Assembly (NCBI GenBank): GCA_001600495.1
Contig: BCKE01000032.1
Span: forward strand, 289,904 to 353,903
Source of the DNA: Pilasporangium apinafurcum
Taxonomy: Eukaryota; Oomycota; Peronosporomycetes; Pythiales; Pythiaceae
DNA: 64,000 nucleotides
Reading direction: 5' to 3'
How positions within the stretch are numbered: position 1 is the first letter of the stretch; every line of letters starts with the position of its first letter. The position numbers and the translations under genes are program-made. Below the pieces are notes generated by a model. The model saw only the letters and a list, made by a program, of their open reading frames with translations, was not told the DNA's origin and made no database searches. Below, in pieces: positions 26,010 to 64,000 of this stretch.

Positions 26010-26050
26010 CCGTACGGACTTTACCTAATTAATACAGTATTACTCATAGT
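26010..26050. repeat. 41-bp dispersed repeat, copy 1
   Basis: This 41-bp sequence, starting CCGTACGGAC and ending ACTCATAGT, is repeated without a mismatch at 63836-63876 in the same orientation. Both flanks differ. It lies between the ADSL start and the Fanzor element, so it may be the end of a mobile element. Confidence 0.85.
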
Positions 26051-26272
26051 TACCTAATTTTTTCCTTATTTTTTATAAGAAATGGGTAAAATTGAGAGGT
26101 TAAATCTTGCAATATCAGCAATTCGTACTTTATCAAACCCGTTCGGGTTTCTCCCGTTTTTAGACCTGCTGGGTATGAGATATAATGGAGATCCATTACA
26201 TACCAACTGTAGCAACCAAAAACCTCAGCGCACGATCGGACGCCAAACTTCAACATTCTCCGATTTGCCACG

Positions 26273-27944
26273 ATGAAGAGAAGAGGTCGTCCACCAGATT
26301 TCGATGAGGAAGACTCTCACGATGACTTTGAAGACGTAGGGCTTCAAATTGGCACACCACGCTTGCGTTCCAGAGTCAAGTGCAACCAGAAGCCTTCAAA
26401 TCAAAAGATCACTACCAAACGCAAACGCGAAGAAGACGCCTCCACGGTCAATAAGGATGGACATCCATCTACATGGTTCAGACCTGCTATAGCAAGCACA
26501 TTGTGGTTCCCCGAGCGTANTGCGTTGCGAGTGGTGGATACGCGCATCAAAACAAGAAAGTCGAGGAAAGCAAAGATCTGTGGGAACAAAAAAGTTCGTA
26601 AGAAGAAACGCCAACAAAGAAAACATCGGGAAAAGCGGGTCAAAAACAAACAACCAGCGCATTTACGAAACNNNNNNNNNNNNNNNNNNNNNNNNNNNNN
26701 NNNNNNNNNNNNNNNNNNNNNTATCGCCCGATCTCACAATCAGGTAAAATGGCGGGATATTTCAGAAACAAGAAAGCATTAAGGCGTCATTGTCAAGCTG
26801 ACGATGAAGTACGGGGGTCTGCGTTTGGAGACTTTACGAAAGCGGTCGATTCATCGTTGGCGTTGTTTTTTGCCAAAAAGGAAAAAAATGAGAAGACCAC
26901 GTTCCCAGAGCTTCGCTTCAAAAGCAAGTTCGCACGCTCGAACTCGATTGAATTGCGTAGTCATTCGATCAAGATTGTGAAAAGCGGTGTTAGGTTCCAC
27001 CCAACTTTTTTTGGTTTCAAGAAAGACGAAGGAATCGAGGTGCGCGAGAAGCTTCCCGAACTCAACTATTCAGTTCGGNTGCGGCGCTCTCGTGAAGGTG
27101 AATATCATTTATGCATCCCTCGACACAAGGCATTCCCAATATCAACCTCAAATCGATCATGCGCGCTTGATCCAGGAGTACGCAAGTTCATCACGCTATA
27201 CGACCCCGACGGCAGGGTGTTATGTGTGGGTGATCCGAACAAAGAGCTCGTGCGGCGCTTTCANCTCATTAACACGTATAAGAGAGAGTTGTCGTTAATG
27301 GAGAACGCGATTGAGTCAACTACATGCAAGAAGTCCGTCTGTAATTGCAAGAGATTTTGTAAGACACGGACACGGACTGCGAAGAAGCAAGCACGACAAA
27401 GAATACGCACGAGCAAACGTCAGCGTTATCGTCTGCGACGCAAGATTCGGTTTCTGTTGAGAAAGGTGTCACGGATGGTCAACGATATGCACCAGAAGCT
27501 CTCGCGGTGGCTGAGCGACAATTATCATGAGGTACTGTTACCAAGGTTTCAGACAAAAAAATGGCTGCAAGATATGTACTTGAGGAAGTTGAAGATGCAA
27601 CACCAAGAAACTTATGGGAGCCAGAGGAGATGCTGACAGTACGTGGACGCAAGCGCAAGATTTCAAGTCCGACGACGCGGATGATGTTGGCTCAGGCACA
27701 TTATCACTTCAGAATGCTCCTAACACAGAAGATGGAGCGCACAGGCGGACACTTGGAAGAAGTCTGTGAGAGATACACGGCCATCTCGTGCTCACGCTGT
27801 GGGAAGATCAACAAGAGACTCGGTGAAAGCGAGACATTCAAATGCAAGAAGTGTACGTTTGATCACGATCGTGATGTAAGTGCCGCAAAGAACATCTTCC
27901 ACAAGAATATCGGCGGATCTATCTTGCGCGAACACTTCGNCTGA
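26273..27944 (+). mobile_element. Fanzor / TnpB-type RNA-guided nuclease element, reading frame broken
   Basis: Eukaryotic relative of transposon-borne TnpB nucleases. The frame from 26273 begins MKRRGRPPDF (AT-hook-like) and passes into a very basic, nuclear-localisation-like stretch (NKKVRKKKRQQRKHREKR). A 50-bp gap follows. After the gap the frame (26722-27556) carries the TnpB-like N-lobe (DEVRGSAFGDFTKAV) and the RuvC-I motif ALDPGVRKFITLYDPDG, with its catalytic Asp. Next is a Lys/Arg-rich helix and the RuvC-II region (EVLLPRFQTKK). The frame shifts at an A7 run (27554-27560). The C-terminal part, 27561-27944, has a zinc ribbon (CSRCGK...FKCKKC) and RuvC-III DHDRDVSAAKNI. Domain order is complete. 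The frameshift, single Ns and the gap may be assembly faults or real decay. Activity is therefore uncertain; the family assignment is firm. Confidence 0.85.
26672..26721. other. Assembly gap (50 N)
   Basis: Fifty consecutive N inside the Fanzor N-terminal region. A round number suggests a placeholder rather than a measured length, so the true coding length and frame across it are unknown. Further single Ns occur at 26520, 27079, 27264 and 27940. Confidence 0.99.
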
Positions 27945-28330
27945 TAAAGCAAAAAAATATCGAAGTCGCCTTCTTCGAGGAGTCCTGCCAGCTTTACTGG
28001 TGTTATAGGCCCAAGAGGGAGTAAGTGTCCGGTACTTTGGTATCTTTGCCATCTATGAGGATCTCCTTAGGCGTTACTTCCACACCACTGCAATCCATTG
28101 GCTATAAAACCTCATTTTCGGTAATGATTGGTTGAAAATAGAAAAAAAAAATATGTGTGGGTACGGACAGCTTGAATCGACATTGATATTGGATGTGGAT
28201 ATCAGCTCAAAGATACGATACACTTTGTATTCAAAGGCTAGACATGAATACGAACTCGAAATCTACGCCAGGCGCATCTATCACTATTTCCTTGTTGCTG
28301 CGACATTATGCAGCAACTTATTTGCATCCC
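27945..28330. other. 3' flank of Fanzor element; possible guide-RNA region
   Basis: 386 bp without a coding frame between the Fanzor stop and the AP-3 mu stop. Just after the stop a short hairpin is visible (TCGAAG ... CTTCGA, about 27959-27977). In TnpB and Fanzor systems the guide RNA commonly overlaps the 3' end of the nuclease gene and the element end. Placement here is inference only. The right boundary of the element is not identifiable by eye. Confidence 0.3.
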
Positions 28331-29960
28331 TCACAATCGAATTTGGAACCGCCCCGCCTTTGTAAGCGTTCGCACGCCCTTGTAAGGCTTGTACTTTTCG
28401 TTCGTGATTAGCAACGTCTCCACATTCAACCCCGAGACGGTCGCCATGGGGACTTTGAACCCAAGCAACACAATGGGCTTCTCGTCCGGGATCGACGCGT
28501 TTTGATGAAGGATGATGTTGCCCCGCAGTGTTGGATTCGTGCCTTTCTTGCCCATCTTGCCAACATTCCAGCGAACAGTCTTGGTTGATTCATCAAAGAG
28601 ACAGCTGCCATATTCTGTGTTCACATCCACCGTCCGAATACTCTTCGGAAAGGTCACGTCCACAGTCACGTCTTCCACTTGGAGGTTCTTCTTCGAGTTG
28701 GATGCGAGCGTTGGCATCCCTCTTGTCCCGATCTGCAAGTCCAATGTGCCTGTACCTTTGTCATTGTACGAGATTTGTGGGTGGCAGTATACTGGTGGTA
28801 CGAGCTGTTGTACCTGCACGCGGTACTGCATCAACTCGAATTGACCATCCGGTGGTACAAAGGAAATGACGCGTTCGCGCTCATATCGTGAATAGCGAAC
28901 ACAGGGATGGAACGAACAATCATCGATCACCGAGGGGTCCGTAAACACCATAGTCAAATCAGGGACACCCGACAAGCGACTGTTGCTGTGAATCACGCCA
29001 TTCACTTCGCACGAGATCATTTGGCCATTATAGTCCACAATGGCGTCGATTTCCTCGACAATATCAAAGTAAATCTCGTTCTGCGTGTACTTGACTCCAC
29101 TCTTGCGCCACGGGATGTTAGAGATCGCACCTTCGGGCAGAGTATTACTGACACGAGACTTCCCCTGCATATGACGAAGCGCATCTCAGTAATAGTTGGA
29201 GCATACACCGTTTGTAGCTTAAAGCAACGCCTACTTACTGACACCATAGCGGCAATGCGGTTGGCCGTAGACGGTGGAGCCACCATTGCTTTCAATGCGT
29301 TTGGTTCTGTTGTCAATGGATAACCATTGTCGAGCATTTCTTCCAACAGCTACAGACAAATACGAAATCAGCCAAACTAATAATGAGACAAAGATTATTT
29401 CATACACGATAGGCACCCACTTGTCACGTACCTGGTATACAGTCGAGAAATTGTCCTTGATAGAGTTCTCGTCAAAGTTACCGAAATAATCACGAAAGAC
29501 AGCAACCACGCGATGTAGAAACTCAATCACAAAAAGTGGGGAGATCTGCCAATAAGTACACAACACCGTTCACTTGGTCAAACATTCAAACACGGGTTTT
29601 CCTTAATCTCATCAACGTGTCTTGCACGAAGAACATGCTAACAAACACACCTCATTCGTTACGACCGCCAACACAAACAGATCATCCCGAAATACACTAA
29701 CGAGGTAGTACTTGTTGGTCACTATAATCGGTGGTACATCCTCTCGTTCGCGGTATTTGTTCACTTCTTCCATGAAGAAGTCGCACACATTCCGGCTAGT
29801 CAGTCCTCGCCAATGCTTCTCGATGATGACCTCACTGCAGGTATCCGCCGATGCATATAGTGAAGCCCAATCAGCTGTATGAACATGCGAAACCCTATGA
29901 TTTGTATGTGGGTCAGCTCGCTTACCCAGTGGTGGTGATAATAAACATCGACTGGATCAT
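28331..29960 (-). CDS. AP3M: AP-3 complex mu subunit
   Basis: Cargo-binding medium chain of the AP-3 adaptor, which sorts membrane proteins from endosome/Golgi to lysosome or vacuole. Five exons (on -): 29960-29926, 29834-29651, 29545-29432, 29349-29239, 29164-28331, ~425 aa. The longin-like N-terminus starts MIQSMFII and contains EKHWRGLTSRNVCDFF and PLFVIEFLHRV. The mu homology domain shows IPWRKSGVKYTQNE, FDIVEEIDAI, PDLTMVF, SFHPCVRYSRYE and FVPPDGQFELMQYRV. The terminal KYKPYKGVRTLTKAGRFQIR is typical of mu3 rather than mu1, mu2 or mu4. All phases close. The gene is complete. Confidence 0.94.
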
Positions 29961-63835: not shown

Positions 63836-63876
63836 CCGTACGGACTTTACCTAATTAATACAGTATTACTCATAGT
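63836..63876. repeat. 41-bp dispersed repeat, copy 2
   Basis: Identical over 41 bp to 26010-26050, same orientation, different flanks. It lies 13 bp before a 24-bp palindrome and 52 bp before a second TTAA element. Confidence 0.85.
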
Positions 63877-63889
63877 CTAGGGATGCGAG

Positions 63890-63913
63890 AAGTATTTAAC
63901 GCGTTAAATACTT
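63890..63913. repeat. 24-bp perfect palindrome
   Basis: AAGTATTTAAC-GC-GTTAAATACTT reads the same on both strands with no mismatch. A related, imperfect palindrome (GTTAAAAATATTTAAC) follows at 63918-63933 and overlaps the left end of the TTAA element. Confidence 0.9.
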
Positions 63914-63928
63914 TTTCGTTAAAAATAT

Positions 63929-64000
63929 TTAACAAGCAATCCGCGAGCCAACGGTGCCAGTTTTCAGTTGTTTTCCTAAACTCAAAAAATCCGCAACTGC
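63929..64000. mobile_element. Left end of a second TTAA transposon (runs off the window)
   Basis: TTAA at 63929-63932, then 68 bp identical to 41173-41240, the left end of the full element. The rest lies beyond the window. Identity of all compared bases suggests a young family. Confidence 0.85.

Follow-up and report, generated by a model that had tools for sequence, protein, structure and literature searches.

What is the mobile element that interrupts the left half of the window (here, the whole 64,000-nucleotide stretch analyzed, positions 289,904 to 353,903 of contig BCKE01000032.1 of the oomycete Pilasporangium apinafurcum), and what moves it? An earlier note, made from the sequence alone, placed a Fanzor-type RNA-guided nuclease at 26273..27944; these coordinates capture the coding part of an element that in its entirety spans 26013-28073 (2.06 kb, plus strand, like the parts of it given below), its ends having been set by alignment of sister copies. 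The element belongs to a family of about 55 copies that is inserted next to the trinucleotide CCG and carries no TnpA transposase within its ends. The explanation that we favor, with some confidence, is a Fanzor2 transposon of the IS607 lineage that has no transposase of its own and is probably moved in trans.

The identification of the encoded protein as a Fanzor, closest to Fanzor2, is near certain from sequence comparison. The 3' piece of the coding region matches Pfam PF07282 (4.8e-18) and NCBIfam guided_TnpB (1.4e-14), and the middle piece also matches guided_TnpB as well as, at 1.9e-6 and 28.5 bits, under the cut-off of 30.5, Pfam OrfB_IS605; the pieces are short and all NCBIfam matches are under their own whole-protein cut-offs. 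With sister copy L010 as the query, 86 homologs were retrieved at E <= 1e-3 (best 1.5e-151) which, together with the domain matches, exclude chance as the source of the motifs that the earlier note had named, all of which are present: a basic N-terminus (MKRRGRPP at 26273), RuvC-I (LDPGVRK at 27166), a zinc ribbon (CSRCGK at 27789, CKKC from 27843) and RuvC-III (DHDRDVSAAKNI from 27861). In the homolog alignment, the DPG of RuvC-I (27169..27177, catalytic aspartate 27169-27171) has D in 85, P in 86 and G in 85 of the 86 homologs. The canonical TnpB RuvC-II glutamate, suspected in the note to be relocated, is indeed replaced by a proline codon (27541..27543; P in 83 of 86), and the predicted alternative catalytic glutamate precedes the zinc finger (CERYT, 27768..27770; E in 82 of 86, gaps in the other 4). 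DPG and the alternative glutamate occur together in 81 of the 82 homologs that have both columns, across 22-50% identity, and this retention indicates that the lineage has been selected over longer times. At the column of the RuvC-III aspartate (DHDRD, 27867..27869), 69 of the 86 homologs have D, and the zinc ribbon (CSRC...CKKC, 27789..27854, recognized in the sequence and in the homolog alignment) retains its first cysteine in 62 of 86 and so is not universal. The mimivirus Fanzor2 L79 (ApmFz2, PDB 9b0l) is the first match among solved structures both by sequence and, with the model of a homolog, by fold; the Fanzor1 SpuFz (9cey) comes far lower in Foldseek, at rank 46, and the tree contained no Fanzor1 rows. 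Neither an affiliation with another family nor a non-catalytic placement of the aspartates, the outcomes that had been named as grounds for rejecting the assignment, was found. The description of the N-terminus as AT-hook-like stands as far as its basic character goes: its RGRP we take to be an AT-hook, the N-terminal piece had no Pfam matches, and the related copy F3 lacks RGRP. As a member of this family, the enzyme would be expected to cleave DNA in an RNA-guided manner that depends on a target-adjacent motif (TAM). Fanzors of oomycetes are already known from Pythium, Phytophthora and Albugo (PMC3627910; all papers are cited here by PMC number).

The motifs do not form one gene in this copy. 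They are distributed over three different frames (26273-26782, 26749-27636 and 27561-27944), in which the N-terminal piece (26273..26671, with MKRRGRPP seen in translation) is followed by an assembly gap of 50 N (26672..26721) that replaces about 370 bp of sister copy L011, the first TnpB-like strand included; then come the middle piece with the TnpB-like lobe and RuvC-I (26722..27554), an A-run that breaks the reading frame here and in sister copies L013, L017 and L023 (27555..27561), and the C-terminal piece (27562..27944, stop codon 27942-27944). Farther upstream, at 26122..26124, is a deletion point: longer copies such as L011 have about 320-330 bp more in this 5' region than the window copy. 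This copy is dead and cannot encode a Fanzor protein.

The search for related copies that the note had proposed, conducted over 36.47 Mb in 136 contigs, yielded the main new facts. The left end (26013..26121) starts with a six-base variable tip, TACGGA in the window, followed by CTTTACCTAATTAATAC, and the right end (27945..28073), common to the sister copies, terminates with GATCTCCTTAGGCG, the last bases being GGCG. There are 55 exact right ends in the genome (pattern with Y; 9 of the 55 read GGTG) and 55 left ends with <=3 mismatches, reversed control patterns for both ends giving zero matches, and left and right ends could be paired for 45 copies. No terminal inverted repeats (TIRs) or target-site duplications (TSDs) were found, the flanks of 23 pairs showing no duplication at zero offset, with the exception of TSD-like tips in 4 of the 45 copies; high TSD scores at other offsets proved to be the conserved element ends themselves. 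The longest low-N copies, of about 2.65 kb, contain nothing but Fanzor, and a TnpA query produced zero matches within the ends of the examined copies. One long frame is kept in L010 (648 codons) and L011 (724 codons), both without the segment that holds the start codon of the window copy. In a subgroup (L011, L014, L020, L022, L023 and L028), about 50 bp around that start codon are missing and the RGRPP N-terminus with them; in the window, the segment is flanked by CACGATGA repeats. The copies differ from L010 at 380 of 29,588 aligned coding bases and hence appear young. Candidates for an autonomous partner with the same ends were rejected: the long pair L031 consists largely of N (5,525 of about 6,030 bases), and a second left end of the family, at 63836-64000 near the contig end (CCG followed by TACGGACTTTACC), enters a high-copy repeat about 40 bases after 63839.

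The trinucleotide CCG lies immediately to the left of the element in 41 of the 45 paired copies (of the other four, two read CTG and two are damaged at the left end), at 26010..26012 in the window, and in 10 of 11 unpaired left ends, the remaining one having ATCG; in 39 of the 41, the triplet is preceded by A or G. Element-free paralogs of two insertion sites carry the motif, too, and CCG is thus a property of the target: among four paralogs of the L029 site, it is found in L021 and L019, with CCA in L023 and L028 not comparable, and at the L031 site in 5 of 6 paralogs, the sixth having CTG, as well as in L015 and L016. The Naegleria lovaniensis nuclease NlovFz2, which shares the Fanzor fingerprints, uses the same triplet as its TAM in vitro and makes a blunt cut after base 19 (PMC10432273). 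An insertion motif identical to the TAM is to be expected because the nuclease recognizes the rejoined site, and we infer that CCG is the TAM of the Fanzor in this family. By the same TnpB/Fanzor logic, the 19 bases of host sequence at 28074..28092, a length taken from the NlovFz2 cut position, are the putative guide and protospacer. The matches include a protein of Naegleria lovaniensis, P0046 (26% identity), which may or may not be NlovFz2. At the NlovFz2 locus, inverted repeats and a clear link to a transposase are reported to be lacking (PMC10432273), compared with about 55 young copies here.

The right end is a candidate for the 3' part of the guide-RNA scaffold, a role that is unproven. 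Its outer stem, which closes on the element's final base, is present in all 15 sequences used (5 of the 20 found were left out), with no two-sided changes among 37 pairs; the fold energy of the L010 right end is unremarkable against shuffles (z -1.14, 26 of 200 as good), as is that of the window copy (z -1.08), in which the best fold differs. Rfam gave zero matches, and the right ends of the older F2 family had a covariation term of -0.10 (16 of 22 sequences used). In the diverged copy F3, inspection by eye shows two pairs of the middle stem to be disrupted.

If the favored explanation is right, the right-end RNA and the adjoining host sequence would guide the nuclease to CCG-protospacer sites, the form that the empty allele has at each insertion. 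Insertion 3' of CCG would be accomplished in trans, the most likely agent being a serine recombinase of the IS607 TnpA family. Recombination by IS607 takes place at (G)GG across two identical base pairs and leaves no TSD (PMC6188088); the (C)CG target and the CG at the right tip of the element are a close parallel. As in IS607, TIRs and TSDs are lacking and the tip dinucleotide is the same as the last two bases of the target motif; the differences are the dinucleotide itself, GG in IS607 and CG here, the absence of TnpA here and the 10 mismatched pairs. Among the 45 pairs, the junction dinucleotides are CG/CG in 33, mismatched in 10 and damaged in 2. Decayed IS607 TnpA is abundant: a typed TnpA piece as the query scored 150 places among 235 candidates, compared with which a PF00239 profile search, finding only 3 pieces, is an undercount. 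This abundance, combined with the IS607-like junctions, favors TnpA acting in trans; the TnpA pieces near L021, L023 and L028 are taken as chance, given the same abundance. Three older Fanzor2 copies sit downstream of an IS607-transposase piece, one of which matches the NCBIfam IS607 transposase at 5.5e-11, under the cut-off. One of the 150 scored places, C36:99347-99652, has a 218-aa open frame with zero stops.

Two relatives of the family were noted in the same searches. F2 is an older, decayed Fanzor2 family (e.g., L033, L034 and L035) with an IS607-transposase piece upstream, ends of the form TTAACC...GGTTAA and well over 100 pieces among those listed, many with stops; an F2 Fanzor piece as the query found 160 places, of which about 26 of those listed are F1 or F3. 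F3 is a diverged relative (L095 and L116, C135:12490-16600) with a 703-aa open frame, an interrupted zinc-ribbon region, homologous left and right ends, and CCG and GGCG junctions as in the main family.

Several observations weigh against the favored explanation. All 10 TG-containing pairs are mismatched (8 CG/TG, 2 TG/CG), and strict IS607 exchange needs identity; no intact TnpA was present among the TnpA pieces read; flank-derived left tips, found in four copies, are not predicted for a serine recombinase; and the guide-RNA structure is unsupported by energy or covariation. Furthermore, differences among copies are near-evenly spread over codon positions (119/124/137), and shared variants comprise 27 nonsynonymous, 8 synonymous and 1 stop; among singletons, the balance shifts toward synonymous changes (71 nonsynonymous, 42 synonymous, 2 stop). 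The even spread implies no visible selection on the protein in cis while the burst lasted and, along with the many broken or internally deleted copies, is what would be expected of a passive hitch-hiker, a Fanzor that is idle here and whose left tips are ordinary end damage. We regard this as improbable, given that DPG and the alternative glutamate are kept in the distant homologs, that CCG is also the TAM measured for a Fanzor2 (PMC10432273), and that the number of flank-derived tips exceeds that in each of 20,000 re-pairings.

These tips are the main anomaly of the family. In 4 of the 45 copies, the left tip repeats the start of the right flank, over 6 nt in L029 and L055, 9 in L024 and 11 in L050, whereas the re-pairings yielded 0.11 such copies on average and never more than 3. 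The left end has lost two bases in L029, one in L055, five in L024 and ten in L050, so that the first two cases lean on the flank match, and the switch points show microhomology of 4, 4, 3 and 2 nt. Of 56 left ends, 49 could be compared in clean register, L012, L024, L025, L050, L055, L066 and L110 being excluded; among the 49, tip positions 1-4 vary in 8, 10, 10 and 5, and positions 7-17 in 0 or 1; elsewhere, left position 34 varies in 16 of 49, and right-end positions -15, -16 and -2 in 10, 8 and 9 of 53.

A six-base tip that is hypervariable and sometimes equals the target could be the coupling sequence of another transposase, e.g., a tyrosine recombinase with a 6-7 bp overlap, but the flank-derived stretches differ in length where a fixed overlap is expected, and none of the 45 right flanks compared shows a donor-type tip, which makes this a very unlikely solution. 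A capture of the Fanzor2 by a rolling-circle or other HUH-type element, with a single-strand join 3' of CCG, would dispense with a TSD at a complete left end, while one-ended events would damage the left tip and produce a short TSD, as in the four copies with 6-11 nt directly 3' of CCG; mismatched TG/CG junctions would fit as well, and there is a parallel in the TSDs 3' of TTTT in Fanzor1-carrying Helitrons (Bao and Jurka, PMC3627910). Nevertheless, there is no clear terminal hairpin (the left end folds no better than shuffles, and the 129-nt right end has z -1.51), right-end-only and left-end-only copies are, by eye, about equally common, and the transposase pieces accompanying the relatives are IS607, not HUH; a search with Helitron PF14214 returned 0 candidates and is uninformative, the controls having been detected in 0 of 14. 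HUH capture appears unlikely.

The tips might alternatively record RNA-guided homing by a eukaryotic Fanzor, a possibility that we put forward tentatively and consider doubtful. The nuclease would cut the empty allele 3' of CCG, within the protospacer; the end so produced, bearing the first protospacer bases, would anneal through 2-4 nt of microhomology inside the left end on the element-bearing chromosome; and the element would be copied across, giving the TAM, k protospacer bases and a shortened left end, with the right end followed by the whole protospacer. Altered tips passed on to later insertions would then produce the hypervariable tip, and the TSDs beside TTTT in the Chlamydomonas Fanzor1-carrying Helitrons would be scars of the same kind. 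The tips are also accounted for by a one-ended insertion in which the second cut is staggered, and the near-even codon positions make homing less likely, although a protein supplied in trans is still compatible with them. In the Helitrons, TSDs 3' of TTTT were reported for 10-70% of Fanzor1-carrying elements and one of 200 Fanzor-less ones, with the cause left open (Bao and Jurka, PMC3627910). The Helitron2 elements CRe-1/2/3 resemble the present family in fixed-motif 3' insertion without a TSD and in truncated left ends with a TSD beside the motif, and differ from it in carrying Fanzor1, in the motif TTTT and in TSDs that occur in 10-70% and are mostly longer, compared with 4 of 45 here (PMC3627910).

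Among Fanzor2 elements, those of mimiviruses carry the IS607 recombinase (PMC3627910), which the element described here lacks, whereas Fanzor2* of Chloropicon and molluscs are likewise without an IS607 TnpA of their own (PMC10711439). The latter have TIRs and TSDs, the marks of cut-and-paste transposition (PMC10711439), neither of which is found here.

In the window, the element is followed by an AP-3 mu gene (28331-29170), whose homologs are up to 92% identical, with 87% in Pythium insidiosum and 86-87% in downy mildews, which places the host among the oomycetes close to Pythium; the left neighbor, by eye, resembles adenylosuccinate lyase. At L012 (C24:139400-149100), two family pieces lie about 3.4 kb apart with an open reading frame between them that by eye is ribosomal-protein-eL8-like, and the ten bases to the left of the first piece are repeated to the right of the second.

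A literature search limited to titles and the beginnings of abstracts of open-licence PMC papers found neither this family nor a left-tip scar, and the biological role of Fanzors has been called unknown (PMC10432273). What the present family offers is about 55 young, near-identical copies with readable junctions, a TAM deduced from insertion sites that matches the biochemical one, and possible repair scars. The junctions of sister copies hint at the DNA motif that the Fanzor of this family targets, and earlier cuts made by it may be recorded there; because the copies are young and readable, the question of homing becomes testable by sequencing alleles at named loci, without a genetic system being needed first.
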